Source of the DNA: a virus
Length of the DNA stretch: 28,675 bases
Strand: one strand, 5' to 3'
IMG/VR virus record: IMGVR_UViG_3300031758_000427
Coordinates: 1-28,675 of that record
Shown in pieces: positions 3,052 to 27,581 of this stretch. The stretch's first letter is position 1. Each line of letters starts with the position of its first letter. The position numbers and the translations under genes are program-made. The notes below the pieces were generated by a model, which was not told the DNA's origin, did no database searches, and saw only the letters and a list, made by a program, of their open reading frames with translations.

Positions 3052-4830
3052 ATGCTTGACCTTTCGTTCGATTCGATCCGCCGCGAGGTGGAGAGCGCGG
3101 AGCGATTCCGCGACACGCATCTGTCGTCGCTTCGGACGATGGTCGAGAAGTACCACGGTCCCGCGTTCAGAGATGACCGCTCGGACCCTTACATCGACGA
3201 TCCTGAGAACTTCGGACACGAGTATGTGTCGTTGGTGCTTCCCCGCATCATCCACGACACCCCGAAGTTCCGAGTGAAACTCGGTAACCCGATGCTCGAC
3301 CTCATGGTCGGCAAGCGGCTTCAGATCGCGATCAACAGGTGGTCCCGCATCACCAAGTTGCGTCGCACCCTTGAGCGTGTCGCGACCGACATGCTCTTCA
3401 CCTACGGCGTCGCGCTCACCGTGAGTGAGCCTCGACCCGAGGTCAGGAAGACGGACGGGAAGGAGCCGTATCTTCCCCGCGTCTACCGCATCTCTCCCGA
3501 GCGGTTCTTCATGGATCCCGCCGCGACCAACATCGAGGACGCGCGGTTCATGGGGCATTGCTACGCCATCGACAAGAACGACCTGATCTCCCGCGCCGAG
3601 CAGGACAAGAGTTACGACCTCGATGCGATCCTTTCGATCCCGTCGGGTACCGATCTCGACGAGGTGCGCGATGACAACGGGCGCGACATCGAGGACCGCA
3701 AGGAACTCGCCGTCTACGAGGTGTGGGTACCCGAGGCAGACCAGTCGCTCGCCGAGGAGATCGACGAGATCGCTGGCCCGGGCATGGTGAACGGCACCAT
3801 CTACACCTTCGTCAAGGGCCGTTCGAAGGCGAGCAAGTACGACGGATACATCCGCCGACCGATCCCGTACTTCGGCCCACGGCAGGGTCCGTACACCGTG
3901 TTCGGCGTCTACACCGTCCCCGATGATCCGTACCCGCTGTCGCCGCTCATGGCGATCCAGTCGCAGGTCGAGGATCTCAACGCCCACCTGACGAGCGTTC
4001 GATCGAGCGCCGCCGCCTACAAGCGGCTCGTCATGGTCGATGCGCGCAACGCCAAACTCGCGCAGGACATCAAGGACCGTCCGCACGACTACATCATCCT
4101 GTCCGAGTCGCTCGACAAGGACAAGGTGGTCAACCTTGAGGTCGGCGGCATCACCCAGCAGCAGGTGCAGTATTCGCAGATCGCTCAGGACCGCCTCGAC
4201 CGCGTGTCGGGCATCCACGACGCCATGCGAGGCAACATCTCGGGTTCGGCAACCGCCACCGAGGTCGCCGTCGCCGAGTCGAGCGCGACCATGCGCATGG
4301 CGCACCTCAAGCGCCAGTTCCAAGAGTCTGTCGATGACCTCGCTCGGTCAGTTCTGTGGTACATGTGGCACGACGATCGTGTCGCATTCCCACTCGGCCG
4401 CGAAGGTGCCGAGGCGTTGCTTGAGGCTGATCCCAAGTTCACGGGTGGCGTCAGAATGCCCGGTTGGGAGGATCTTGAGATCGCCGTCGATGCGTACAGC
4501 ATGGAGCGCGTCTCCGAGGCGCTCGTGCAGAAGCGCGCGATGGAACTTCTTCAGATCACCACAAGTGTGGCACAGGGCATGATGGCGATGCCGTTCATCA
4601 AGTGGCGCGAGATCCTGTCCGTGGTGGGCGACGCTCTCAACATGCCGCACCTCGCCGACATGATCGATCAGAACGCGATGATGCAGCAGGCACAGATGGC
4701 GCAGGCCGCACAGGCTGGGTCGATGCCCAGTTCGCAAGGCGGTCCTCCGATGAACGCGATGGGCGAGCCAAGCCCGATCCCCGCAAGCAGCATGGCTGGC
4801 CTACAGGCCGCCGCAAACAGGGCGATGTGA
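3052..4830 (+). CDS. Portal protein (head-tail connector)
   Basis: This is a 592-residue protein. In the virion it would form the dodecameric ring at one head vertex, through which terminase packages DNA and to which the tail attaches. The size fits portals of short-tailed phages (about 500-700 residues). Visible portal-type features include the N-terminal YxxxVLPRIIHD region, a wing region with PERFFMDP (about 145), SPLMAIQSQVEDLNAHL (about 295-315), and a GSATATEVAVAES segment (about 398-410) followed by a long helix with SVLWYMWHDD. That Ala/Thr-Glu segment and the following helix are common in phage portals. The C-terminal 50 residues are rich in M, Q and A (the barrel or tail). It is followed by a small gene, then scaffold and capsid, the classic head order. 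The family match is by pattern and context. Confidence 0.85.
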   Translation: MLDLSFDSIRREVESAERFRDTHLSSLRTMVEKYHGPAFRDDRSDPYIDDPENFGHEYVSLVLPRIIHDTPKFRVKLGNPMLDLMVGKRLQIAINRWSRITKLRRTLERVATDMLFTYGVALTVSEPRPEVRKTDGKEPYLPRVYRISPERFFMDPAATNIEDARFMGHCYAIDKNDLISRAEQDKSYDLDAILSIPSGTDLDEVRDDNGRDIEDRKELAVYEVWVPEADQSLAEEIDEIAGPGMVNGTIYTFVKGRSKASKYDGYIRRPIPYFGPRQGPYTVFGVYTVPDDPYPLSPLMAIQSQVEDLNAHLTSVRSSAAAYKRLVMVDARNAKLAQDIKDRPHDYIILSESLDKDKVVNLEVGGITQQQVQYSQIAQDRLDRVSGIHDAMRGNISGSATATEVAVAESSATMRMAHLKRQFQESVDDLARSVLWYMWHDDRVAFPLGREGAEALLEADPKFTGGVRMPGWEDLEIAVDAYSMERVSEALVQKRAMELLQITTSVAQGMMAMPFIKWREILSVVGDALNMPHLADMIDQNAMMQQAQMAQAAQAGSMPSSQGGPPMNAMGEPSPIPASSMAGLQAAANRAM

Positions 4831-4831
4831 C

Positions 4832-5122
4832 ATGAAGTACGAGTTTCTCGACTCCGATGGAAATGTGGTCGAAATCACGATGTTGATGCGTGACGCGCCT
4901 TCCATCGGCAGTATTATCACGCACGAGGGGCGGACTCTGACCCGTATCGCCAGCACTCCGCAGGTGGATCCGGGTACCAATCGTCATCAGTATCCCTATG
5001 TCAGCACGGCGCTTCCGCGCAGGCTGGAGGGATGCAAGACGAACAAGCAGGGAAAGCCCGTCATCATGTCGAAGCGCCATGAACGCGAAATCATGGCGCG
5101 GCACGGATTTGAGAAGGACTGA
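4832..5122 (+). CDS. Small conserved phage protein between portal and scaffold
   Basis: This is a 96-residue protein starting one base after the portal stop. It opens with KYEFLDSDGNVVEI, continues with a short beta-rich part, and ends in PVIMSKRHEREIMARHGFEKD. The ending (P-I-SK-HE-E-I-G-) recurs in small phage proteins located next to portal genes. The N-terminal half resembles the fold of FmdB-like putative zinc ribbon proteins but lacks the CxxC pairs; only one cysteine (CKTNK) is present, so zinc binding is unlikely. The function is unknown. Confidence 0.7.
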   Translation: MKYEFLDSDGNVVEITMLMRDAPSIGSIITHEGRTLTRIASTPQVDPGTNRHQYPYVSTALPRRLEGCKTNKQGKPVIMSKRHEREIMARHGFEKD

Positions 5123-5125
5123 TCG

Positions 5126-5992
5126 ATGTCAGAACCCGAAGCACAGATCAAGCCAGCCGATGAGGCCATCAATCCCATGCAGCAACTCGCTGCGGAAGCC
5201 GCCATTGAGGCGGACAACTCCGTCAGCGAAGACGCTGTGCTGGACCGCCTCCTCGGGATCGACGAGCCTGCTCCACGGCAGGCTGTTCGCACGCCTGAAC
5301 CGACTGCTCCAGCGAATGACCCCGACTTCGATCGGGCGCTGAAGGCTTTGCAGCGCGATGGCGTTCCCGCCGAGATCATCGACTCCATCAAGTCGGATCC
5401 TTCCAAGGTGAAGGACTGGGGCTTGAAGGCGGCGAAGAGGCAGGCGGATGTGGATGCGTTCGGAGCCAAGGTGGCCGAGTCCAAGAAGACCCCAGCGGAC
5501 AAGTCGGAGACCCCGAAGGCGTCCGCCGCTACCGATGACGGAGAGGCTGATGCCGATCCGCTGTCGGTGTTCGGGGACATCTTCGGCGACGAGGCCGCCA
5601 AGCCGCTCCGCACGATCACCGACCGACTTCGCGCCGAGTTCGACGAGAAGGCGCGCGCGATGGAGGTCAAGTACGAGACTCGCAGCGCCTACGAGCGTCT
5701 CGCGCCGATGTACGGGAAAGACGCCCCGTCCATCGACGAGATCACAAAGGTGGCAGCGCAGATCGGGCGCGAGAATCCCGGTCAGTTCGAATCCATCTCG
5801 GACATCGTCCAAGAAGCATTCCGCATGAGGTCAGGCGAGCCGAAGCGTTCCGATCCGAGGAACTTCGCGCGTCCCACCGTCGGCAAGCAGCCGACGCGGG
5901 CGACTCGTGAAATCGATCGGGAGGACGCCGTTCTCGACATCCTGCTCTCGGGCGGATCGCGCGCGGACGCGCTCCGAGTCATCTCACGCTAA
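5126..5992 (+). CDS. Scaffolding protein
   Basis: This 288-residue acidic, helix-rich protein has low hydrophobicity and sits between portal and major capsid genes, the standard place for a scaffold. AAGGA lies seven bases before the ATG. The N-terminal 120 residues are Asp, Glu and Ala-rich with spaced short helices. About residues 110-150 are a Lys/Ala/Glu/Asp linker. Residues 150-240 are predicted helical. The C-terminal 40 residues are basic (SDPRNFARPTVGKQ, then TRATREIDRED). A basic C-terminal hook contacting the capsid protein is common in scaffolds. It would guide procapsid assembly from inside and then leave. No protease motif was seen. The assignment rests on position and composition, not on a sequence signature. 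Confidence 0.75.
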   Translation: MSEPEAQIKPADEAINPMQQLAAEAAIEADNSVSEDAVLDRLLGIDEPAPRQAVRTPEPTAPANDPDFDRALKALQRDGVPAEIIDSIKSDPSKVKDWGLKAAKRQADVDAFGAKVAESKKTPADKSETPKASAATDDGEADADPLSVFGDIFGDEAAKPLRTITDRLRAEFDEKARAMEVKYETRSAYERLAPMYGKDAPSIDEITKVAAQIGRENPGQFESISDIVQEAFRMRSGEPKRSDPRNFARPTVGKQPTRATREIDREDAVLDILLSGGSRADALRVISR

Positions 5993-5995
5993 CCC

Positions 5996-6003
5996 AAGGA
6001 GGG
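5996..6003 (+). promoter_or_regulatory. Strong ribosome binding site of major capsid gene
   Basis: AAGGAGGG lies four bases before the ATG at 6008, in the short 15-base gap after the scaffold stop. It is the longest Shine-Dalgarno match among the starts in this window and fits the high expression needed for the capsid subunit. Confidence 0.85.
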
Positions 6004-6007
6004 CATC

Positions 6008-7348
6008 ATGCCTTCGATTCAGACCTTCAACGACTTTATGACCTCGACTGGCCCGTCGTATCTGACGAGCGCCGACGCGGTCATCAACGAGGCCGTCAAG
6101 AACACCTACGCCTTCAGCCGCCTCCTGAAGGGCAAGACCCGCGAGCAGACCATTCAGGGTGGTACCGAGATCCGCGATGTCATCATGTTCGATGACTCGC
6201 GCACCTACGACCACTACCAGCCGAACGACACCTTCGTGTGGCGCAACCCGCAGGTCACCGACTATGTGCGCGCGCCGTGGCGCTTCCACATCGACCACAT
6301 GTCGTGGACCGACGCTGAGGTCGAACTCAACACGGGCGAGACCGCTGCCAGCACCAAGGTCGCCTACAAGCGGCTGAAGCGCATCAAGGAGCAGCGGATG
6401 TGGACCTCGATGCTCAACGGATTCGAAGAGGATCTGTGGGCTGTCCCGTCCGTCACGGGCATGGAGGACGAGAGCGGCAAGTTGCCGTACTCGCTTCCGT
6501 ACTTCATCAGCGAGGTCTCCACGCAGTTCGGCGGCGCTCTCGGCCGTCGTGGTACTGCTCCGTACACGGCCAGCACCAACACGGCCCACACGGTCATGCG
6601 CATCTCTCCGTTCACGGAGAACCGCTGGTCCAATGTCGTGGAACTGTACAACTGCAAGACCGATGCGCTGACGCCTCTCGGTCCTGACTGGGGCAAGGTC
6701 ACGGCCCAGTCGCTGACCAACAACACCGTCTACTCGCAGCAGGGTCCGTCGGGTGCGGTCGCCACCACCCATCAGGTCGGCAATCTCTTCAACGCGATGG
6801 ATGTCATGTTCATGCGTCTGAAGTACGAGGCTCCGGCGACTCGCCAGCAGTACTTTGAGAACGACAACCTCAATCGGCAGATGATCCTCACCAGCCGACA
6901 GGGCGTTCAGAACTACCGCAACGCGCTCCGCCTCAGCAACGACACCCTCGTCTCGTATCAGGACGCTTCCTACAACAGCCCTGCATACGCTGGCGTCGAT
7001 GTCACCTACTGCTCGGACCTCGACAACGCGGCGATCTTCCCTGCTCACAGCGCCGCCGTGACTCAGAGCGCAACTGGCTACAACGGCGTGACGGCTGCCG
7101 CTGGAGCGTTCACGGGTTTCGGTACCGAGGACGGTACGAACACCATCGTCAAGGCTCCGCGCTACTTCTTCGTGAACGGCAACTACCTCACGCCGATCTT
7201 CCACGCGCGCCGCTACTTCAAGCAGCACGAGGTTCTCCGTCACCCGAACCAGCCGTTCACCTATGTCCAGCCCGTGGACTGCTGGTCGAACCTGTTCTGC
7301 AACAGCCGCCAGCGTCACGGCGTTGTCGCTCCGATCAATCTCACCTGA
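6008..7348 (+). CDS. Major capsid protein
   Basis: This 446-residue protein directly follows the scaffold gene and is preceded by a very strong ribosome binding site. The composition is that of a shell subunit: mixed alpha and beta, even charge, few cysteines and high GC3. The N-terminus (SIQTFNDFM, then LTSADAVINEAVK) is followed by a beta-rich E-loop-like region (EIRDVIMFDDSRTYDHYQPND) and by ETAASTKVAYKRLKRIKEQRM, which would be the start of the spine helix. The C-terminal part contains HARRYFKQHEVLRHPNQP. HK97-fold coat proteins of podoviruses have this length. No delta-domain or protease site is obvious. I rely on context, length and expression signals; I do not recall a named close family. 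Confidence 0.85.
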   Translation: MPSIQTFNDFMTSTGPSYLTSADAVINEAVKNTYAFSRLLKGKTREQTIQGGTEIRDVIMFDDSRTYDHYQPNDTFVWRNPQVTDYVRAPWRFHIDHMSWTDAEVELNTGETAASTKVAYKRLKRIKEQRMWTSMLNGFEEDLWAVPSVTGMEDESGKLPYSLPYFISEVSTQFGGALGRRGTAPYTASTNTAHTVMRISPFTENRWSNVVELYNCKTDALTPLGPDWGKVTAQSLTNNTVYSQQGPSGAVATTHQVGNLFNAMDVMFMRLKYEAPATRQQYFENDNLNRQMILTSRQGVQNYRNALRLSNDTLVSYQDASYNSPAYAGVDVTYCSDLDNAAIFPAHSAAVTQSATGYNGVTAAAGAFTGFGTEDGTNTIVKAPRYFFVNGNYLTPIFHARRYFKQHEVLRHPNQPFTYVQPVDCWSNLFCNSRQRHGVVAPINLT

Positions 7349-7353
7349 TCCCG

Positions 7354-7360
7354 AAGGAGG
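7354..7360 (+). promoter_or_regulatory. Strong ribosome binding site of decoration-like gene
   Basis: AAGGAGG lies nine bases before the ATG at 7370, separated by a GACACACAC spacer. Like the capsid gene, this gene has its own intergenic ribosome binding site rather than a stop-start overlap, which suggests a high-copy virion protein. Confidence 0.8.
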
Positions 7361-7369
7361 GACACACAC

Positions 7370-7879
7370 ATGATTCCCGGCATTCTCGTTCCAACAGGAA
7401 ACCTCGGCGCTCTCACCGCCGATCAGATCGTTGTCCAGCCCATCGCTGCTGTCGATGTCGCTGTCGGCGACCTCGTCAAGTTCGATCTCGCCGACACCAG
7501 CACCTACACCAACCTCACGGCGCTCAACGATCCCGACAACAAGACCAACCCGTTCAATGTCGTGATCAAGGCGGTCGCAGGTTCCTCCTCGACCACCGAG
7601 AAGGGCGGCATTTGGGCCGTGGTCACGCAGGCTGCGACCGCTGGTCAGCGTTGCAAGGTCTGTGTTTCGGGCCTTGTTGATGCCAAGATCAGCGGAACCA
7701 CCACCGCTGGCGTCACCACCATGATCGCTGGAGCGGCGATCCTTGAACCCGCTCCGAGTACCGCATCCGTCAACAGCAGCGCGCCCATCGCACTCGCGAT
7801 GGGTACGAATGCATCGGGTGCGGCGACGATCAAGGTTCTGATCTGCGGCTTCTCTCTGTTCGGAAGCGGCGTGGCCTGA
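7370..7879 (+). CDS. Probable capsid decoration (cement) protein
   Basis: This is a 169-residue protein rich in A, T, V and G with alternating beta strands and no helices of note. It is placed right after the major capsid gene with a similarly strong ribosome binding site. Small beta-rich proteins encoded here in many phages sit on the outer capsid surface and stabilise it. Visible features are an N-terminal strand pair (IPGILVPTGN), DVAVGDLVKFDL (a motif like beta-barrel decoration proteins), VVIKAVAG, and a C-terminal IKVLICGFSLFG. Two cysteines are spaced in KVCVSG and LICG. The assignment is inferred from position, composition and expression; a minor tail role is the alternative. Confidence 0.55.
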   Translation: MIPGILVPTGNLGALTADQIVVQPIAAVDVAVGDLVKFDLADTSTYTNLTALNDPDNKTNPFNVVIKAVAGSSSTTEKGGIWAVVTQAATAGQRCKVCVSGLVDAKISGTTTAGVTTMIAGAAILEPAPSTASVNSSAPIALAMGTNASGAATIKVLICGFSLFGSGVA

Positions 7880-7894
7880 TCTGACAACTCTTCT

Positions 7895-7924
7895 CGGGGT
7901 GCCGTGGGAAACCACGGCACCCCG
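7895..7924 (+). terminator. Perfect 13-bp hairpin with GAAA tetraloop after the capsid genes
   Basis: The arms CGGGGTGCCGTGG (7895-7907) and CCACGGCACCCCG (7912-7924) are exact inverted complements around a GAAA loop. A GNRA tetraloop gives exceptional stability. No T run follows (the next bases are CTTCC), so a classical intrinsic terminator is doubtful. An mRNA-stabilising or attenuating element behind the highly expressed capsid genes is as likely. It ends five bases before the next start codon. Confidence 0.7.
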
Positions 7925-7929
7925 CTTCC

Positions 7930-8700
7930 ATGCTTACCTACGGTGGCCTCAAGCAGCACATTCTCCTCGCGCTCGGCGGCCAGCCGTCGATCGTCAGCGG
8001 TGTCACGCAGAATCAGCGCATCGCCGAGATCGTCAATCAGGCTGGGAACTACCTGTTCTCCAAGCAATGGCGGTTCCGCGAGCGCACGGGCCGCCCTGTC
8101 TCGCTGATCGCCAATCAGAACTGGGCCGCGATGCCCGGTGACGCCGAGGAGATCGTTTCTCTCGTGACCAAGGCTGGACTTGGTTGGCGCGTCGAGTTGA
8201 CCAGCCCCGAGCAGATCGAACTGTTCCGCAACAGCATGGCTCCCGCGCTGCTCGACAGCGTGTACTACGCGGCCCTCTCCCGACCGTGGGCGCAGTCGGA
8301 CGATGTGACCCCACTCGTGGCTGGAACGGCGTTCCCTGCCCCACGGCTCGATATCTACCCCACCCCGCAGGCGACATCGACCGACGCGATCATCATGCGC
8401 TACCGCGCAGGTTGGACGGCCGTCTCGGGCGAGACGAATGCGGTAACCCCCGACACCTACAACATCCCCGTTCCTCCGTATGTCGAGGCTCTTCTGATCG
8501 CCTACTGCCGCGCGTTCGCGGTCGCCTACGAAGACGAGGGTCTCGCGGCACGGCTGATCGAGATCGACAACGGCCCGATTTGGAACGCGGCCGCCATCAA
8601 GGATGGCATTGCACAGAGAGACTACGGTCGCCTGAACCCCGTCCGTTCAGGGGCGTTTGTCTCCGACCCAGTTCGATACCGCAGGGGATTCGTGCAATGA
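7930..8700 (+). CDS. Head-tail adaptor / tail tubular protein A-like
   Basis: This 256-residue protein lies between the decoration-like gene and the lysis genes, upstream of the tubular-B-like hub. The N-terminus (QRIAEIVNQAGNYLFSKQWRFRER) has the helix ending in W-x-F/R found in tubular A and gp4/gp10-type adaptors. The middle has LDIYPTPQA and IIMRYRAGW strands, and then a helix PPYVEALLIAYCRAFAVAYEDEG. Such proteins ring the portal and receive the nozzle. No Shine-Dalgarno sequence is visible before the ATG, and no other ATG, GTG or TTG exists between the upstream in-frame stop (7882) and this start, so the start is well defined despite the weak signal. Four bases overlap the next gene. 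Confidence 0.7.
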   Translation: MLTYGGLKQHILLALGGQPSIVSGVTQNQRIAEIVNQAGNYLFSKQWRFRERTGRPVSLIANQNWAAMPGDAEEIVSLVTKAGLGWRVELTSPEQIELFRNSMAPALLDSVYYAALSRPWAQSDDVTPLVAGTAFPAPRLDIYPTPQATSTDAIIMRYRAGWTAVSGETNAVTPDTYNIPVPPYVEALLIAYCRAFAVAYEDEGLAARLIEIDNGPIWNAAAIKDGIAQRDYGRLNPVRSGAFVSDPVRYRRGFVQ

Positions 8701-8963
8701 CCGATGATGGGAAGAAAAACTCGCAGTTGATCGCCTCATGGGCGCAGTTCGTCGCGATCTGCATTGGCATCGGAACGGTGCTGATGTACATGGGCCGCAA
8801 GGATCAGCAGTTGGCTACGACCAGCGAGCAGGTCAAGGAACTCAGCAGCATCGTCTCCGACCTCGCGAAGGCGCAGGTCGGCTTCAACCTCACGGATCAG
8901 CAGACCGCAGAGCGTCTGCGCGAACTGGCCGCACGGCTGGATCGACTTGAAAGGAGCAAGTAA
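8697..8963 (+). CDS. Small membrane protein with coiled coil (lysis region; i-spanin-like topology)
   Basis: This is an 88-residue protein coupled to the previous stop by ATGA. Residues about 11-32 (from LIASWAQFVAICIGIG to VLMYMG) form one transmembrane helix followed by RKD. Residues 38-88 are a hydrophilic coiled coil with heptad spacing, ending in RELAARLDRLERSK. One N-terminal anchor plus a coiled coil is the topology of inner-membrane spanin subunits, and also of small membrane accessory proteins in phage lysis regions. The gene comes directly before a holin-like gene and close to an o-spanin-like lipoprotein, so a lysis role is likely. Which of this or the 9177 gene is the true i-spanin partner is unclear. 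Confidence 0.65.
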   Translation: MTDDGKKNSQLIASWAQFVAICIGIGTVLMYMGRKDQQLATTSEQVKELSSIVSDLAKAQVGFNLTDQQTAERLRELAARLDRLERSK

Positions 8964-9172
8964 TGACCGAGTTCATCCCGTCTTGGCGCACCACGGTTGC
9001 AGGTATCGGTGCCATTCTCGTCGCCATTGGTGGCGCGCTGTCTGCGACCTTCGACAACGACCCAGCGACCGTCGCCGACTGGACTGCCGTGGTTGCCGCG
9101 TGCATCGCTGGATTCGGCCTGATCTTCGCGCGCGACAACAAGGTCAGCAGCGAGCAGGCTGGGGCGAAGTGA
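8963..9172 (+). CDS. Holin-like membrane protein
   Basis: This is a 69-residue protein whose start shares one base with the previous stop (TAATG), with AAGGAG six bases upstream. There are two hydrophobic helices: about residues 10-28 (TVAGIGAILVAIGGALSA) and 41-56 (WTAVVAACIAGFGLIFA). A short acidic loop (TFDNDPATVADW) separates them, and the tail is basic/hydrophilic (RDNKVSSEQAGAK). Small two-helix proteins with W-TT-AG at the start and G-GLI-ARDN at the end are commonly annotated as phage holins. It would form lesions in the inner membrane at lysis time. No endolysin gene is adjacent, so the muralytic partner must lie elsewhere in the genome or inside a larger protein. Confidence 0.7.
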   Translation: MTEFIPSWRTTVAGIGAILVAIGGALSATFDNDPATVADWTAVVAACIAGFGLIFARDNKVSSEQAGAK

Positions 9173-9176
9173 TGCC

Positions 9177-9404
9177 ATGTTCGACCGAGTCATCGCGCAG
9201 ATCGTCCTCGGCCTCCTGTCGTACCTTGAGCGTCGCATGGAGCGTGGCTCCGTGGCGGTCGATGCTGATGTGGATCGTGATCGTCTTCGTCGTGGCGGCG
9301 CTCGCATTCGCAAGTGGCTGCGGAAGCAGGGCGGTGTTCATCCCCGATCAAAGCCCGATTCGACTGGGTCCGGGGATCAAGGGACGGGTGTGGATGCTGG
9401 TTGA
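9177..9404 (+). CDS. Small amphipathic protein overlapping the lipoprotein gene
   Basis: This is a 75-residue frame starting five bases after the holin-like stop. The first 50 residues look like a genuine protein: a hydrophobic/amphipathic N-terminal helix (VIAQIVLGLLSYLERRM), then GSVAVDADVDRDRLRRGG and ARIRKWLRKQ. A similar A-DAD-D-LRRAG-RIR-W pattern is familiar from small phage lysis-region proteins. The final 24 residues are Gly, Ser and Asp-rich and are probably a by-product of the overlapping o-spanin frame. The N-terminal helix is short for a transmembrane span. Overlap of two lysis genes in different frames (9262-9404) mirrors the Rz/Rz1 arrangement, so this may be a degenerate i-spanin. 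Confidence 0.6.
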   Translation: MFDRVIAQIVLGLLSYLERRMERGSVAVDADVDRDRLRRGGARIRKWLRKQGGVHPRSKPDSTGSGDQGTGVDAG

Positions 9405-9495
9405 CGGTCAATGGACCCTGTCCGCCAACAGCATCGAGTTGCCTGAAGGCATGTACATCGTGCCTCCGAGGTTCGTCGAGGAAGGTGAACAATGA
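9262..9495 (+). CDS. Outer-membrane lipoprotein, o-spanin-like
   Basis: This is a 77-residue protein in a frame different from the overlapping upstream gene. It has a lipoprotein signal: a hydrophobic stretch (WIVIVFVVAALAF) followed by the lipobox-like ASGC with the acceptor Cys at residue 20. A second Met at residue 3 (9268) would serve equally well. The mature part is about 58 residues: AVFIPDQSPIRLGPGIKGRVW, then a DGQWTLS strand and ELPEGMYIVPP. The pattern (VFIPDQSP-R-GP, W-L, PEG-YIVPP) is characteristic of small phage lysis lipoproteins. It would be anchored in the outer membrane and complete disruption of a Gram-negative envelope. No Shine-Dalgarno sequence is evident, so translation probably couples to the overlapped gene. 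Confidence 0.7.
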   Translation: MLMWIVIVFVVAALAFASGCGSRAVFIPDQSPIRLGPGIKGRVWMLVDGQWTLSANSIELPEGMYIVPPRFVEEGEQ

Positions 9496-10655
9496 CCGCG
9501 AAGATCCAAGTCCGACGCGACACGACCACGAACTGGAATGCTGGCACCCCTCCGACCCTTGATGTCGGCGAGATCGGCCTCGACACCACGCTGAAGCAGA
9601 TCAAGATCGGCGATGGGTCGAGCAACTGGACGGCGCTTCCGTGGCTCGGAGGCACGCTGCCCTACTTCTCATCCCCGAACGCAAACATCGATGACTCGTC
9701 CCTTCGCGTTCCCGGCGTGTACCGATGGGCTGGCATCGCGTCAATCACATCGGGAACAGTTCCCGCCGCTCCGATCGACATCAAGGCGGCGGACGGCGGC
9801 ATCAACATGCTTGTCCTCGCGTTCGGTGCCGTCGTGCTTCAGCATCTGTGGACCGACGGAGATGGAACACAGCCGCAGAAGTCGTTCACACGCATCTACG
9901 ACACCGCATACAGGGCTTGGACTCCGCAGAACATTTGGGGTGTCAGCGCGACCGAGGGCGTCGATGTCGTTGCCAAGAGCATCACGCTCAAGGACACGGC
10001 TACCGGACTGACCGTTGATGGGAACTCGACGCTGACGGGCAATGTCACGGTCAATGGCACGACCACGCTCGGAAACGCCAACGCCGACATCGTCACGGTG
10101 CAGGCTGGAACGGTTTCGGCTCCGATCATCACTACTACTGGCGATACCAACACGGGTATCTATTTCCCGGCAGCCGACAAGGTTGCGCTTGCCGCCGGAG
10201 GTGCCGATCAGTTGGTTGTTGACAACGGTGCGGCTGATGTTCTTGCTGCAATCTTCAGGAAGGGCGCGACCCTGAATGAGCGGTTGGACATGAACAACTT
10301 CCGCATCATCGATGTGGCAAACCCAACTCAACTCACCGACGCGCTCAACTGGCAGACGCTGCTTTCCCATCTCGCGTTCATCGAGGCGACCAATCTCGAC
10401 AACGGCACGACATTGACCGCACCCGGTGGATCGACATGGGCGATCTCGGGAATCAATGGCGGAGGTGGAACTGCAACCGCGACTCCCAATGGCGCTTACG
10501 CTGGATCTAGATGGGACGGAGTCATCATCGGATACAATGTAGGAACGGGAAATGTCGGCAACTCGTGGTGCAGGACATTCAGCAACTCCACAGCACCATC
10601 TGTAGGAGCGGTTGACTGCACGGCCATCATCATGGTCGCTGTCCGTAGATCGTGA
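9492..10655 (+). CDS. Tail fibre / receptor-binding protein with Mtd-type N-terminus
   Basis: This is a 387-residue protein coupled to the lipoprotein gene by ATGA, with GGAAGG upstream. Residues 1-55 (KIQVRRDTTTNW, then GEIGLDTTLKQIKIGDGSSNW) are the short beta module seen at the N-terminus of many phage fibres, including major tropism determinants and hyaluronidase-type tails. It is followed by WAGIASIT and repeated beta stretches (TGLTVDGNSTLTGNVTVNGTTTLGNANA) of the trimeric-fibre type, a GDTNTGIYFPA segment, and a receptor-tip-like C-terminus (SRWDGVIIGYN, then SWCRTF). The last 60 codons are less GC-rich than the neighbours, consistent with rapid exchange of the receptor-binding tip. 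No intramolecular chaperone peptidase was recognised. Confidence 0.75.
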   Translation: MTAKIQVRRDTTTNWNAGTPPTLDVGEIGLDTTLKQIKIGDGSSNWTALPWLGGTLPYFSSPNANIDDSSLRVPGVYRWAGIASITSGTVPAAPIDIKAADGGINMLVLAFGAVVLQHLWTDGDGTQPQKSFTRIYDTAYRAWTPQNIWGVSATEGVDVVAKSITLKDTATGLTVDGNSTLTGNVTVNGTTTLGNANADIVTVQAGTVSAPIITTTGDTNTGIYFPAADKVALAAGGADQLVVDNGAADVLAAIFRKGATLNERLDMNNFRIIDVANPTQLTDALNWQTLLSHLAFIEATNLDNGTTLTAPGGSTWAISGINGGGGTATATPNGAYAGSRWDGVIIGYNVGTGNVGNSWCRTFSNSTAPSVGAVDCTAIIMVAVRRS

Positions 10656-15893: not shown

Positions 15894-18800
15894 ATGACGC
15901 AGATGAACACGCAGACGCAGACGCAGATCGATCGCATTCGCGCTCGCGAGGCCGCAAAGGCCCGTGAACGCATGGCTGCGCAGGGAATCAAGATGTCATC
16001 TCCCGAAGCGACGGAGATGATGCAGTCTGCGCTGAGTCGAGCCGAAGACAGCGCGTGGAACGCTGCGTACAACAAGGCGATGAAGAACCTGTCCGAGATG
16101 GGAGTCCCGGGCATCGAGGTGATCACCAACGAAGATGACATCAAGTTGATCGGGTCTCCGTATGTCACGGCTGACGATGACATCGAGACCTACGCTCGGC
16201 TCGCTGCCGATCAGTTCACCAAGGGTATGACGCCTACCACTTGGGCCGATTACAACAAGAACAAGCGCGGAGTTGTCCCTGCGTCTTTCCAAGAGATGCT
16301 GGGAAGCGCGCTTGTCTCGTTCGAAGGCTCCGTCGGCATGGCTACGGCTGGCGCTTGGTCGGCGTGGGACATGTACGGCTATGGCGGAAAGATGTGGCAG
16401 GAAGGACCGATCACAGACGAACAGAAGATGCAGCACTTCGCTGGCATGATGGAGGCGCAGCAGACTGGATCAGAGTTCGCGCGGTATTTGTCCACGCCGT
16501 TTGAGTTGGGAAATGTCGCAGAGGAACTCGCTGGTCCTCCGGGCGAGCCTGTGCTTCCAAGCGAGCGGTTTGGAACTCCGGGTGGCGCAGTCGGCGAAAT
16601 GATTGTCAGCGAAGCGGGCAACATCGGTTCGGCGATTGGGTCGATGCCAATGTCAGGTCCGTCGATGCTTGCGCCGAATCCAGCGTTGCGTGCGGTAGCA
16701 ATGGTGCCATTCGCATTCTCGGGATACGGAGATGCGAAGATGGCTCGCTACGACATTTGGCGAGAGCAGGCTCAGATGGCGGAGTATCTCAAAATCGCTC
16801 CGCCTCCGATGCCATCGACTGGGGAGTTCGAAACATGGGGCGGCATCGGCGCAGCCTTTGAGGTCGGATCAGAGTTTGTCGGTGACACCGTTCAGGCTGG
16901 AGCGATCAAACTCGCTGGAGGAGGAAGGCTTGGACGCTGGGGTGGGTCTAGGTTCGTGACATTCATCGACACCTTGCAGGACAGCCTTGCAAGAACCCGT
17001 GGGCCTCTTGGAACAGCCAAGAGACTCGGCGTTGGAGTCGTGGTCCCGGGCGTGACAGAGGGCGCGGAAGAGTTCGTTCCTCACATCGGAGAGCAGGCTC
17101 AGGATCTTGCATCTGAACTGTTCACCCCCGACGATTCGTACTGGGAAGGATCCATCGACCGCGCGCTGTTCAGCGAGAACAGCCTGCACTCCGCCAAGGT
17201 TGGCGCGTACTCGGGCATGATCATGGGCGGCGGCGCGTATGTCGCCAGCCCGACTGCATTCAAGCGACGCAGGGAGGCGCGCGAGGTTGCGGCAGAGGCC
17301 CGCAAGGGAACCGCGTTCGTCACCGAAAGCATCATTGAGGGTCAGAAGACGGATGCGGCAGAACAGATCGCTCCATCTCCGAAGGCAAAGGCGACGCAGA
17401 GACAGCGCGCTCTTGAGAACTTCCGACGCAGCGTCGTTCCTACGCGCAGCAGCGCGATGGCGATGCACCATGTCGAGCAGTTGAGCGCGGGCAATCGAGG
17501 CGTGATGGTCATCGACCCCGCCGACATCGACACGACGCTGACGCCCGAGGTTCGTGAGCGGATGCGCGCACTCGGTATCTCGGAAAAGCCAATCGGGACG
17601 ATCGATGGCAAGAAGGTGTTCGCGGCCAATGGAGATGTCGCTCAGGTCATGGACATGATCAATGCTGGCGATTTCCAAGCCCTTGGCGGAAACCCGCTGC
17701 GCAACGACGGCCAGTTGATGATGGGAGCAGTTGTCCTGAAGGACGCTGGCGGCCGTGTTGTCGAGATCATGCCGTATTCCGATCCGACGCAGATGCACGC
17801 AGCCGCGCCATCGATCGCTGCATACGCGGCTCAGAACGGTCTTACTGTGTCGGCTGTCAATCACGAGACATCCGAGACCTATTCCGACATCAACGACTCC
17901 GTGCGTCGCGTTCAGGATGCCGACGCCGTGCAACTCGGTCTTCCGCAGCGCGAGCGTCAGGCTCCCACGAAGAGGGACACGAACCGAGGTGTTCGCGCTC
18001 TTCGTATGGACATCGAACGAGACGCAAAGGGGAGCAAGTCGAAGCGCAGGGCAAAGGCTTCGGATGCATTCACATCACCCTACCTCACAGCAGAGGAAAT
18101 CGGCGACGCTACAAATGGAGATGTGACCGTCACGGTCACGATGTCTCGTGTTGCCGACCAAGACCTGTCTGACGGAGAACGCAACCTCTCCAAGATGACG
18201 GACGCAAATGCGACCGTCCTCGACGGCAAGATCGTGTTCTCAATCAAGCAGAAGGATGGATCGGTCAAGACGGTCGAGAAGCCCGTGCGCATGGATGGCG
18301 TCTATCTCCCGCAGGTTTCACCTGACGGGATCTTCCTGATGCGCGAGAACGGCACAGCAATGACATCGCGCAGCGCGTTTGCCATTGCGCTTCACGAGAT
18401 GCGGCACCGCACGCTGTCTCGTTCGAAGAACGGCGCTCTGTACTTCGCGAAACTGCTCCAGTTGGATCCTGCCTACGCCATGCGTGGCGGAGCGCAGTAC
18501 ATGCGGCGATTGTTTGAGAACAAGTTCGCTGGGCAGAGCGATGCAAAGATCATCGCCTACTACCGTGGTCTCTACGAGGCAGCGCAGGCAGTTAGGCAGG
18601 GCGTCGCGACTCCCGAGCAGCAGCAGATGGTTGCTGGATCTCGTGTCGATGCGCAGGGACAGCCCATTGGCACGGTTGGATCCGCTCTGTCCGAGGTCCG
18701 CACCTTCTCGGAAGAAAGCGTCACGACAACCTCCAACCGAGCCTTCGGTCAGACGATGACCAAGGCCGCCGAGTGGGAAGGGATCTATCGAGACTCGCAG

Positions 18801-21800
18801 GAGAAGTCGTTCCGTCGGTTCTCGGCGTGGATGGCGAACGCGCTCGTCAAGAACGGCTTCGTCGGACCCGAGGCGCAGCAGGCGCTCTACGAGTTGCGCC
18901 AGCGTCTCGACAATGTCCGCGAAGAGGAGACCAAGATCCACCGCAAGTTCAGCGACACCGTCTCCGAATCGGTGCGAAAGGACTTGGAGACGGCAGCCCG
19001 CAGAGATCAGGCTCGTCAGGCTCTTCGCGGTGGTCAGCCCGCAGGCGCTGCGCCTGCTTCCACGCCGTCCGCAGCACCATCGACGGCTGTTTCTCCTTCT
19101 CTGCGCGAACCGAAGGCTCCGATTGGCATCAACACCATCGGAGGCGACGAAGACAAGCGCCAGCAGATCGAACAGGCGATCTCCGCCGTTCAGGAAGCGC
19201 AGAACGCGCCTCCCGAGCAGCGCGACAGCATGTTGGCGAACGCCATCGGGATGCTGACGCAGATTGCACCGCTTCTCACGCAGACTTCCGCCCAGTTGGC
19301 TCCGAGCAGCGGGGTCACTCGCCCGCAGATGCAGTCGCCGACAGCGCGCCGCATTCCCGAGGCCATGCGTGATGTCGCTCCTGCCGAGCCTGCTCCGCAG
19401 TTGGCTGGCGGCGTCGAACGGGCTGCGCCTGACCTTGAGGCTTCGGCCCGTCGGCAGCGCAACGCGCAGAACGCGATGGCGATCATGCGCGGCGAGACGC
19501 CGTCCGAGCCTGTCGATCTCGGAACGGTCTCCCGCATCGAGCGCGCACGCACATTCATGCAGGATCCCGAGGAGGAGATCCGCATGTCCGTCCGCGAGCG
19601 CCCCGGACGCCGCGAGGCGAACGACGATGTCCGCAGCATCCGCAATGCGTTCATGGAAGAGCGCGGCATCGAGCCTGAGCAGCGCATCGAGGACACCTAC
19701 GCCGAAGTGGATCCCGATTTCGCCAAGCGGCTTGCCGACTGGTTTGAGTCAACCGAAGTCGATTACAACGACCCGAAGATGCTCGCCGCGTACCGCCAGT
19801 TCGGCCGCGAGACGCTCGACCAGTACAACTACCTTCGCGAGAAGGGTTACGAGATGATCCCGTGGGCTGGCGAAGGCCAGCCGTATGCCGACAGCGCGGA
19901 CATGATCGAGGATCTCCGCACGAACAAGCGGCTGTTCTACTACAAGACGATCAACCCGCAGGAGCAGAACTCGTTCGGATCGAACCCGCAGGCGTTCCAA
20001 GAGGCGCTTCGCAAGAACCCGCTGCTGGAGGACGCTGGCGTCGAGGTTCTCGACAGCGAGGGCAACTCGTACCGTCAGACCTACAACGACCTGTTCCGTG
20101 GCGTGCATGACATCCTCGGCCACGGTGCAGAGGGCTTCCAGTTCGGCCCGCGCGGCGAGGAGAACGCCTACCGATCGCACGCGGTGATGTTCTCGCCGCT
20201 TGCCCGTCAGGCTATGGCGACGGAGACCCGTGCGCAGAACTCGTGGGTGAACTACGGGCCGAACCGCCGCAACCCTGACGGGTCGGTGTGGGGTCAGGAA
20301 GACCCCCGATACGGACCGTGGCTTGATCGGCTGAAGAATGGCGAAGGCTACGCCGATCAGAAGCCGATTCTCACGCCGCCCGAGTTCCTCGGCCTGTACT
20401 CGATCCGCGATCAGGCGTCGGGCAGCGATGCGATTTCTGAGCCGTTCTACCACGCTGTGATTTCCGATGGACTCGGTTCCGAATCGCGCATTGTCGGCAA
20501 CACAAGGAAGTTCAAGACATTCGACGAGGCGCGTGAGGCGGCAAAACTGTACGAGCAGCAGTCACGCGAGCCGTTTGTCGATGTGTTCCGCGTGGATGGT
20601 GGTCGCGGTGCTGTTGTTGATGGACAGCGGGACACGCAGCCTGCCAATGACGAGCGCCCTGTGGCATGGATGACGAGTCCGACATCCGCTCGATACTCCA
20701 AGCGCGACGAGAAAGCAAAGCCAGCCAAGGCAACGCGCAAGCCAGCCAAGACAGCCGAGGAGAAGCGCGCTGCGGCAGCGGCGGCCGCGCAGAAGCGCGC
20801 GCAGGCAGCGATCGCCCGTCGCAATGCCAAGGACCGCGCCGCCATCGACAAGGCTCCGAAGATCAGCATCAGCGCGGAGCCGACGGCGCAACCGTTTGTG
20901 TCGAAGCACATCATCGTGCCTGCGATGAAGAAGGACAAGACCTTCTCCAAGGCCAAGGCATACGCCCGCGCTCACGCGCGTGCGCTGGTGCTTCTCGACA
21001 ACAGCAAGTTCATCGGTCAGGTGAACGCGCTCGTCAGTCGCATCGCTCCCGATGTGCCATTCAACTTCGGGAAGAAGGCCATCGACGAGGTCAAGGGCAA
21101 CTTCGCGGGCAGGAACGAACGCGCCATGCGCATCTCGATCGATGGGCTGACCCACGATCAGAATGTCTCGGTCGCGCACCTACTCGGTTCGCTCATGCTT
21201 CAGGAGGCCGTGATTGTTACTGGCCCTGCGACGGCGGAGACTCCTGCCGCAGAGCAGAGTTTGTCCGTGATGTTGTTCACGGATTCCACCGAACCACTTG
21301 CTGCTCGCCAACTGGATCGCATACTCTCCGATCTCGGCAATGCTGTGAACGGAGCCACCACGCACGAAAGTGGTCGTGGCGTTTGGGCGGTTTGGTCTCC
21401 ATACGAGGGCAACCCACTCACCGAAGCGGATTTCGTCGCGAAAGCCAAGCAGGTTGCGGCCCAGCACGGGCTGTCGTTCGAAACGACTAGGGTCCGCAGC
21501 ACCTACAAGCAGATTGGAGATTCCGATGTCTTGGGCCGTATTTCAGAAGGTCTGCGAGGAGCAGGGCGTGAAGATCGTGGAGAATCCGTGGTGGGCGGCT
21601 GGGATCTATGGGTCCAGCCTGCTGCCACAGTCGCCGAAGGGCTTCAAGACGAAGGATTCCAACTCGACATCGCAGGATGGGCTGAACGAGTCGCTGGCCC
21701 CCAAGAAGGCCCAGCGGTCGCGAACGCGATCATCGAAGAACTCGCCAAGCGCGCCACCGAGCGAAAGCATGGACTCGACCCAAGGTTCCTGACGCGGTAC

Positions 21801-24800
21801 GAAGGCAACATGCAGAAGATCGAGGCTGGGTCGAAGATCCCAGCCACGACTACCGCAGAGAATGCCGAGGACTCGTTCAGGGAGGTCGATGCGCTGCTCG
21901 CGCGGCATCCGAATCCGTTTGAGTCGGAGCAGTCGTACCAGCGTTTCCTCGCCGACATGTACGGCGAGCGGACGATTCCGATTTCTCCTTCGCATCTGAT
22001 CGAGCGGATGCGCGACAACTTCGCGGGCATGAAGGCCGACATGCAACTGCGCGAGGACGGCGGACGCCTCACGCACAAGATGATCGACGATGCCATCCAC
22101 GGGCTTGAGATGGCGCAGCGCCTGCGTGCGCTCTACGCGGCTGGCAAGGTGCAGCCCAAGCACACCGTCGCGCTCGCGATGTGGGGCTTCCTGTCGCGCG
22201 GAGTTTCTCCGTACATTCAGGAGAGCCTGTTCCTCGACATCGTGAACTTCCGAGCGAAGAACGGCCGCACATACGGCGACTTCGTGGACATCGCGGTCAA
22301 CTCTGCTTGGGAGCCGAAGAAGCACAACGCGGAGTGGAAGCAGTTCATCGAGGAGTTGTTCGATGTGATGAAGTACCCGCGCATCAAGAGCGACGGGACC
22401 ATCGCGACGGACAAGAATGGCAAGACCATCTACGAGAGCGAAAGCCCCGGCTCGGGCGCGAAGCACAACGCGAACGCATTCGGACGCAACTTCCTCGCGA
22501 ACATCGGCAAGACGGTCACCATCGGCGGGAAGACGCAGACTGGCCTGCTGCACTTCCACAATGCGATCGGCGACCCGAATGTCTCGGGCAAGCAGGTGCG
22601 ACGCATCTTCGCGAGCATCGGCGAGTCTCTCGGCATCGACAACAAGGTCGTTTCGTTCGCGTGCCTCGTCGCTGGCAAGACGGACATCTCCGTCAACGAC
22701 CGCGTGCGCATCGGAGATCACTACAACCGCGACGGCAGGTATCCGAACGCCTACGACGGATTCACGATCGGCTACGAGGTGATCGTCGAGAACACCGTGA
22801 CTGGCTATGTCGAGATGCCGATCGAGTGGAACCCTGATGATGGAACATCCGAGGAGTTCGCCGAGGCATACAAGGCTGCGATCGAGGACGAGAAGGCAAA
22901 GACGGAGCCGATGAAGGGAGAGGGCCGCAACTTGGTTGCCGAGCGTCGCGCCGCCGCGATCAAGCGTTATGGCTCGATGGAGAACGCTCCCGAGTTCCGC
23001 AAGGACTTCCTGTCTCGGCTGATCGACAAGGGATACCTCGACTCATCGAAGTACAAGGTCACGATCGCACCCGTGAAGGCTGGTGGTCTTGCCAGCATGT
23101 TCGATGGCGCTCGCGGCATCGCCTACTACGAGGCGACCGAGCGCGCGATCGATCCGAATGTGGTGTTCTCCGAGATCATCAAGAAGCGTCCCGACCTCAT
23201 CCCCTACGCGCATCATGGCGCGGAGCATTGGCTGAACTGGACGGGCGCTTCGGGTCAGGAGGCCAGCCACAAGACGCTCGACGGCCTCATCGAGATGATC
23301 TCTCGCGGAGAGGATCGCATTGAGGGCGTGTGGGCGAAGGAAGGACGGTACGACACCTACGCCTTCAACGCCGAGTACGGGTTCGTCTCGGAGAACGGTG
23401 ATCTCGTTCGCAAGTACAAGTACGAGATCAACGGCAACACCTACATGATGACGCCGAAGAACTTCGACAAGTTCATCACGGCGGTAACAGACTTCGACTG
23501 GGCTGGACTCAACTGGAAGAAGGCTCCGAAGACGAAGAAGCCGCAGTTCCGAGTCACGACCGACTCGGTGAGTGGTTCCGACCGTCAGACCCCGTGGTAC
23601 GACGATGCGCTCGTCGGTCAGAAGGGCAAGGACAAGATCGAGGAGTTCGCCAAGGAGTTCGGCACGCGGATGTCGCTCCGAGACATGCCGAACGAGGATG
23701 CTCTCGATGCGTTCGCGACTGCGTTCGTGGATTCGTTGAGAAAGAACCCGATTCCACAGGTTGTCTCGTCGGTTCCCGAGAACAACGAGGTCATGCGCGA
23801 GTTCGCGCGGCAGAACATCGCCGCACAGACGCACGAGCAGGCGTATGAACTCTACAAGCGCATGGTCGAGCAGAAGTTCCCGAAGCCGACCATCGCACGC
23901 TACACGATGTACTTCGACAGGAACAACGCCCTGAACGGGATCGTTCCGAACGATGTGTGGTGGCACGGCGGCGGCAGGCAATGGACAACGCCGAACTACG
24001 ACATCAGCCCGAACCAGTTCGGACTGCACATCGGCAACTTCAATCAGGCGTCGTTCTTCTTCCGACGCGCGATTCAGAACACGAGGTGGCAGGAGAACCC
24101 AGTCACCACTCCCGTGATGTTCCCGCTGTATGCCCGTGCTTTCAAGACGATCGAGATCCCTGATCAGGGTTCGTGGGAGCCTGAGCGAATACTGAAGGGT
24201 ATGCGCGAGGTCGGCCTGATCGACATCGGCGAGCAGCGACAGGTTCTGACTGACATGTACGCTTCTGTGTCCGCGAAGTCACCTTCAAACTCGGATGAGA
24301 ATGGTTGGCAGGTGTTACTGAACGGATCGACGGTGCTGAACATTTTCGACGAGTCAGACGCTGCCAAGATGCGTGACTGCAACATTTGGCTGCGCGAGTG
24401 GCTTGCCGAGCGCGACATCGACGCCATTCGGTATCAGAACTACATCGAGGGTCAGACTCGATCCGACTTCATGGAAGAGCCGAGCATGTTCGGCATCGAG
24501 ACCGAGGCGAAGGAGAAGTACAGGAAGGACTGGGAGCGCAAGGAATACGATTTCGCCGACTGGATGATCAGCGCGCCGAGGACGGACGGGACCGTTGACA
24601 AGCGGCTTGTGATGGAGAAGAAGAAGGAAATCTTCGGCGACCTGAGCAGCATCATCGTGTGGAACACGGGTCAGGTGAAGAGCGCGTCTGCCGACGATGT
24701 CGGCTTCAGAACCTCGATGTCCGACATCAGGGCTTCGATGCGCCATCAGCCTCCTGCCGTGGTCAACATGTACCCCGAGGTCTTCAGCAGCGACGAAGCG

Positions 24801-27437: not shown

Positions 27438-27474
27438 CATGGCATAGACTCCGTTCATCTTTTCCCCCAGCGTG

Positions 27475-27504
27475 GACGCCACCTAGCCGATCGGGTGGCG
27501 TTCG
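27475..27504 (+). terminator. Probable terminator of the late (rightward) operon
   Basis: ACGCCACC (27477-27484) pairs exactly with GGTGGCGT (27495-27502) across a 10-base loop and can be extended at the base by G-T and G-C pairs. Downstream is GCGTTT, a weak T run. It lies 40 bases after the stop of the giant gene, where late transcription should end before meeting the convergent early operon. Confidence 0.55.
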
Positions 27505-27556
27505 CGTTTCAAGGGAACCCGTTCCGCAGCACCCAACTCAATGCTCAGGGAACAGA

Positions 27557-27581
27557 ACAGGCCGCCTCATGGGCGGCCTGT
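27557..27581 (-). terminator. Probable terminator of the leftward operon, stop codon in the loop
   Basis: ACAGGCCGCC (27557-27566) and GGCGGCCTGT (27572-27581) form a perfect 10-bp stem around a five-base loop. Read leftward, the TGA stop of the cysteine-cluster gene (27567-27569) sits in the loop and TCTGTT follows the stem. The element therefore both ends the coding sequence and probably terminates transcription. Confidence 0.6.

Follow-up and report, generated by a model that had tools for sequence, protein, structure and literature searches.

A covarying tetraloop hairpin between the decoration-type and adaptor genes of uncultured SU10-like phages, a candidate 3' border element of the head genes

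The stretch of DNA analysed in this study (hereafter the window) is a contig of 28,675 bases from an uncultured tailed phage, taken from a virus record. Head genes are found in its first third, and a hairpin lies between the gene for a small head protein and the gene for the adaptor. The features of this region are as follows.

3052..4830, plus strand: portal protein gene (SU10_portal, PF23899; phrog_332/156)
4832-5122: ORF of 96 aa, between the portal gene and the ORF at the scaffold position
5126-5992: ORF of 288 aa, at the scaffold position
6008..7348, plus strand: major capsid protein gene (phrog_9953, major head protein), with a strong Shine-Dalgarno sequence (SD)
7354..7361, plus strand: SD of the decoration gene, AAGGAGGG (-12.2 kcal/mol), in contrast to the adaptor
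7370..7879, plus strand: gene for a small head (decoration-type) protein of 169 aa
7880..7894, plus strand: spacer of 15 bases from the decoration stop codon to the stem, without SD
7895..7907, plus strand: 5' arm of the hairpin, CGGGGTGCCGTGG (from sequence, folding and covariation)
7908..7911, plus strand: GAAA tetraloop of the GNRA class (from sequence and comparison of relatives)
7912..7924, plus strand: 3' arm of the hairpin, CCACGGCACCCCG (from sequence, folding and covariation)
7925..7929, plus strand: tail CTTCC, the UU of which (7926-7927) is invariant in relatives of two clades
7930..8700, plus strand: adaptor (head-tail joining) protein gene (SU10_adaptor, PF24175), with an SD-less start

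The small head protein of 169 aa had no family match. The name "decoration" is taken from the position of the gene, at which phage SU10 has an Ig-like gene, and not from a match. We relate the window to SU10 because the Pfam matches of the adaptor and the portal (PF24175 and PF23899) and the gene order agree; in SU10 also, the portal, a small ORF, the scaffold, the capsid, a small head protein, a hairpin and the adaptor follow one another. Direct comparison of the adaptor with SU10_011 by BLASTP gave a weak match (E 0.013). In annotated phages, no DNA-level match to 5900-9500 was found by blastn and none by tblastn with the capsid or adaptor protein, and the portal gave one weak match. In the genome collection, one relative of the capsid protein was found (L252, 8001-9059; 41%), on an Anaerolineales MAG chromosome (CP070811.1). 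This locus is possibly a prophage or a binned phage, and the 1700 bases that follow its capsid gene contain no comparable hairpin at a junction. Elsewhere in the window, an open reading frame of 3847 aa (15894-27437) takes up 40% of the contig, and two more hairpins (27469-27508 and 27557-27581) lie 3' of this giant gene, before an ORF on the minus strand. A hairpin like these has a TTTTT tail in two relatives (G010 and G016), and the corresponding sequence in the window is TTTCAAGG.

The hairpin before the adaptor gene is exactly as described in the earlier note: a perfect stem of 13 bp, all pairs of which are Watson-Crick, is capped by GAAA, spans 7895-7924 and ends five bases before the ATG at 7930. 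Folding of 7860-7960 gave -44.8 kcal/mol (z -3.10), and 2 of 200 shuffled sequences folded equally well. It is the only perfect Watson-Crick hairpin of 13 bp with a loop of 3-8 bases in the window, and no perfect 13-bp hairpin was found in 60 windows simulated with a Markov model. A search of 7000-8700 against Rfam 15 gave no family match; the best hit was sX12, with 23.8 bits against a cut-off of 106. The hairpin is far above chance, since relatives have this structure too, built from different letters.

For the comparison, homologues of the adaptor down to about 46% protein identity to that of the window were used; four loci, reversed or truncated, were set aside in one locus comparison, and the alignment-based viral scans covered the 80 best-matching relatives out of as many as 340, a sample biased to near ones. 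The adaptor start was located in 160 of 189 loci, from which 83 distinct contexts of 105 bases were kept. A perfect stem of 12-13 bp with a 4-base loop, ending 3-6 bases before the ATG, is found at 82 of these 83 junctions, and the loop is GNRA at 81. All counts given below for the SD, the stem context, the loop and the upstream SD refer to the 82 contexts outside the L180/L033 lineage. Among these, the loop is GAAA in 73, GGAA in 6, and GTAA, GTGA and TAAC in one each. There are 37 distinct 30-base hairpins among the 82, and they differ from that of the window at 0 to 20 positions (mean 11).

Loss of the stem in close relatives, which the earlier note had named as half of what would speak against its proposal, was not observed. 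Covariation of the stem, suggested there as a check, was examined, and all 13 pairs show compensatory change on both sides. In an ungapped alignment of 49 distinct rows, 97.8% of 637 cells are paired, the unpaired cells being confined to the outermost pair. The alignment has a covariation score of 0.862, and versions with slid partners do not exceed 0.172. Parsimony on a FastTree tree of the adaptor (67 distinct rows out of 78 long enough) counted 85 double changes from one Watson-Crick pair to another, with pairs 2-13 never broken. Such a pattern does not arise from relatedness alone. A chance palindrome is ruled out by the covariation, the Markov simulation and the tree parsimony. With a covariance model of the hairpin, 25 of 26 records each gave a single strong site, located at the adaptor junction. 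The four other matches listed had E values of 0.002 or worse and were thus weak; three were the opposite strand of the same hairpin. The model missed the record of the L033 lineage (G009), the hairpin of which is readable in the sequence. What relatives keep is only the shape, the loop class and the two U's after the stem; across the 100 distinct junctions of all loci (see below), the loops swap among ultra-stable tetraloops.

The sequence around the stem also has fixed features. Bases +2 and +3 after the 13-position stem are TT at all 82 junctions, and the last stem position before the UU is a purine at 75, giving R-N-U-U at the stem base. The distance from the stem to the start is 5 bases at 63 junctions, 6 at 17, and 3 and 4 at one each, in two clades. 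On the other side, 13-22 bases separate the decoration stop from the stem at 72 junctions and more than that at 7, and the 3 others have no assigned stop. Position 7930 is the first ATG, GTG or TTG past the upstream in-frame stop in the ORF list, in agreement with the earlier statement that no alternative in-frame start exists, and the N-terminal residues from this start align with the proteins of relatives. The reported lack of an SD was also borne out: within the 20 bases that precede the adaptor ATG, anti-SD pairing reaches -1.7 kcal/mol at best, compared with -12.2 and -11.9 kcal/mol for the decoration and capsid starts of the window, and no canonical SD stands shortly before the AUG. In the relatives, the mean best pairing of the adaptor starts (-2.1 kcal/mol, n=82) is weaker than even that of random 20-mers (-3.6 kcal/mol), whereas the capsid (-8.8 kcal/mol, n=43) and decoration starts (-10.7 kcal/mol, n=37) pair strongly.

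One possible interpretation of these facts is that the hairpin is a translation-initiation element, which would replace the SD helix or keep the start open and would fix SD-less initiation of the adaptor at a low level. The position of the ATG, within 3-6 bases of the stem at every one of the 82 junctions, and the missing SD are in favour of it. The adaptor start is also predicted to be slightly more open (0.58) than the capsid and decoration starts (0.51 and 0.53), but this difference is small. Another arrangement with a hairpin directly before an SD-less ATG is the split ribosome-binding site of T4 genes 38/25, in which, according to the passages of PMC3014915 used here, the hairpin immediately before the AUG brings an upstream SD near to it. 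An SD upstream of the hairpin was looked for at the 82 junctions and was not found. For the 20 bases on the upstream side of the stem, mean anti-SD pairing is -0.91 against -3.45 for random sequence, with 2 of 82 at or below -6, and only 1 of 82 has an SD-like 4-mer in its 15-base spacer. A split site was therefore rejected and is extremely improbable.

Relatives with an altered gene order show which gene the hairpin belongs to. When all loci with at least 90 bases before the start are counted, pieces L253-L272 being set aside, a strong hairpin lies within 90 bases upstream of the adaptor at 98 of 100 distinct junctions. At the two exceptions (L033/L180 and L248-L251), the hairpin lies 3' of the first decoration gene. 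In L033 the decoration gene is present three times; the hairpin, with a GAAA loop and a CTTTT tail, stands behind the first copy and is followed by AGGAGG and the second copy. The adaptor of this lineage has GAGG and no hairpin. In L248-L251, the hairpin likewise follows the first decoration gene; the adaptor is preceded by no more than a remnant of the 3' arm, and its start is SD-less though the hairpin is gone. This remnant (6542-6564 in L248) was perhaps left by the insertion of a second decoration gene. In L248, moreover, an ATG 3' of the hairpin opens a frame of 8 codons (6011-6037), which overlaps the start of the next gene as ATGA.

A third clade accounts for 7 of the 100 junctions. Here the hairpin is still behind the decoration gene, and the adaptor start lies 8-23 bases downstream with an SD-like sequence before it. 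The loops of this clade are GAAA, UUCG or of six to eight bases, and in its member L246 the hairpin is behind the second of two decoration copies. Two or three decoration copies are present in several lineages (L033, 5980-8000; L246; L248). Since the relatives with altered order keep the hairpin behind the decoration gene, it goes with the 3' side of these genes and is part of their 3' border. Of 98 distinct post-capsid sequences, 46 have another perfect hairpin, of at least 9 pairs, within 90 bases past the stop of the capsid gene, and in the examples seen a normal SD and then the decoration gene follow downstream.

These relatives do not agree well with the initiation element. In the third clade, the hairpin is retained but is not adjacent to the start, and SD-like sequences are present; the L248 lineage has an SD-less adaptor without the hairpin; and the L033 lineage uses GAGG with no hairpin. 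We regard this interpretation as unlikely. The idea in the earlier note of a structure that must be opened for translation was not upheld either, given that the AUG is outside the stem, that the start of the third clade is well removed from it, and that the L248-lineage adaptor has lost the hairpin. The suggestion that a phage protein might bind the structure fared no better. An operator at which a phage or host protein represses the adaptor would suit a position adjoining the start codon, and the operators of MS2 and of T4 gp43 are hairpins. In the present case, however, no stem letters are conserved, up to 20 of the 30 bases differing from those of the window, and the loop class changes between clades from GNRA to UUCG or to six to eight bases. 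A sequence-specific operator was rejected on account of these free stem letters and loop changes, and is very unlikely.

The explanation that we prefer, with a probability of about 0.5, is a 3'-protecting intercistronic hairpin that would raise capsid over adaptor, an effect to which the SD-less adaptor start would add. On a polycistronic late mRNA, the hairpin would form the 3' border of the part that encodes capsid and decoration proteins; that a single mRNA spans these genes is part of the proposal. The mRNA would be cut or terminated somewhere downstream of the hairpin, and 3'-to-5' exonucleases would halt at the stem, which is very stable and has a tetraloop cap. The messages for capsid and decoration would then persist and the adaptor and tail part would decay, so that capsid and decoration proteins would be made in many copies and the adaptor in few. 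In the clade of the window, where the adaptor start codon stands against the stem without an SD, translation of the adaptor would probably be kept low too. The structure itself, its compensatory conservation, its attachment to the 3' side of the decoration gene and the missing U tract and SD are observed facts. We infer exonuclease protection because 3'-protective hairpins are likewise stable stems that lack a U tract and separate a gene of high from one of low abundance, and the present stem, with its tetraloop, fits this description. The difference in copy number between capsid and adaptor is one that we take over from related phages. Two properties of that class are found here: a stable hairpin is at the border of co-oriented genes expected at different levels, and no uridine tract follows it (CTTCC; mean T-tail score 2.82).

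In E. coli, 26 of the 34 upstream-stabilised operons studied by Dar and Sorek end just behind a stable hairpin without a uridine tract, and menBCE has consecutive protective hairpins, one behind each of two successive genes, according to the passages of PMC5927463 on which we draw. Resistance to PNPase correlates with stem stability, as stated in the part of PMC10667835 used here. By analogy, the second hairpin behind the capsid gene of relatives resembles the consecutive hairpins of menBCE. The same passages of PMC5927463 describe malE-malF, puf and menBCE hairpins that, like the present one, are stable, lack a U tract, lie between operon genes of unequal expression and can occur serially behind successive genes. 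The window differs from what is described there in the phage head genes, the fixed tetraloop stem of 12-13 bp, the extreme covariation, and the SD-less start codon that follows within 3-6 bases; stabilisation, moreover, is in our case a proposal.

The main rival of protection is a weak intrinsic terminator, or attenuator, which would let part of the polymerases pass to the adaptor and tail genes and would be the counterpart of the SU10 and T7 terminators. T7 Tphi is such a terminator, after the capsid genes. SU10 has an annotated terminator at the same junction, between the Ig-like gene and the adaptor (KM044272, 8934-8970), with a tetraloop hairpin (UUCG); it differs from the window in that its T tail is long and its SD stands apart, well downstream, whereas the window has UU only and no SD. 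A Manatee Spring podovirus has a T-tailed hairpin behind its capsid gene. The stems are very stable, and a terminator score after d'Aubenton-Carafa is positive for the adaptor hairpins (mean 25, n=82) and higher than for the two hairpins behind the giant gene of the window (13 and 17). This score and the true terminator of SU10 count against protection, and the invariant UU at +2 and +3 and the CTTTT tail of L033 also favour termination.

The tails, on the other hand, count somewhat against it. As the earlier note stated, no T tract follows the stem, CTTCC having two T's only; the G+C-rich hairpin of an intrinsic terminator is thus followed by UU alone, and a pattern scan for terminators did not list the hairpin at 7895-7924 with this tail. 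The T-tail score is 2.40-4.04 at the 82 junctions, compared with 4.58-5.50 for four T-rich hairpins in related phages, a contrast that is not clean, as the two downstream hairpins of the window score 2.95 and 3.53 and two further ones 3.28 and 3.53. None of the post-capsid hairpins listed is followed by four consecutive T's within 8 bases, and in L239 the stem is followed by AGGAC. We consider a weak terminator possible, though rather doubtful. Protection and termination may be stages of one history, in which a terminator lost its T tail. The proposal in the earlier note of a partial terminator or 3' stabiliser, setting high capsid and low adaptor, thus stands as the best-supported class of function, because the hairpin stays with the decoration gene even in relatives whose adaptor lies in another place; within this class, stabiliser and terminator look alike in sequence.

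A pure 3' border leaves the adjacency of 3-6 bases at 82 of 82 junctions and the invariant UU unexplained. The adjacency suggests either that translation of the adaptor is lowered or that a cut between R-N and UU makes a nearly leaderless message. According to the latter idea, the hairpin and the UU would split the late mRNA in one step: an RNase E-like cut behind the stem would give a protected capsid 3' end and a nearly leaderless adaptor message, read without an SD. If this were true, a single cut would set both halves of the capsid to adaptor ratio, and the fixed distance, the invariant UU and the absent SD would all be explained. The RNase E consensus, in the part of PMC5222698 used here, is RN, then the cut, then WUU, with U at +2 dominant. 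The junctions match it in part, with R-N-U-U at 75 of 82 and UU at all 82 but mostly C and not U as the next base, and this consensus may not be that of the host. We think such a splitter improbable.

Returning to the border hairpin, we note that it is a conserved element of an already known type; the start-codon arrangement is new, and no paper on this hairpin was found among the published titles and abstracts searched. Uncultured SU10-like phages of a broad group thus share, at one fixed junction, an RNA element that covaries strongly and has no match in Rfam. This element would mark the place where the phage must lower expression from the capsid to the neck proteins, and at which SU10 has a terminator. 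The U-tailed terminator, the bare hairpin and the hairpin against a start codon form a natural series, with which head-to-neck stoichiometry could be tested and which bears on how SD-less starts work beside a stable structure. Ultra-stable tetraloop hairpins between phage genes also include those of T4 with CUUCGG and one that precedes the sigma gene in phage 7-11, which are proposed as transcript stabilisers in the passages of PMC8948821 used here. The hairpins of the present group differ from these in their mostly GNRA loops and in their one fixed junction behind the head genes.

A minor observation concerns the adaptor gene itself. In L026, L037, L051, L057 and L067, the adaptor frame has 479-611 aa, compared with 256, which suggests a C-terminal fusion.
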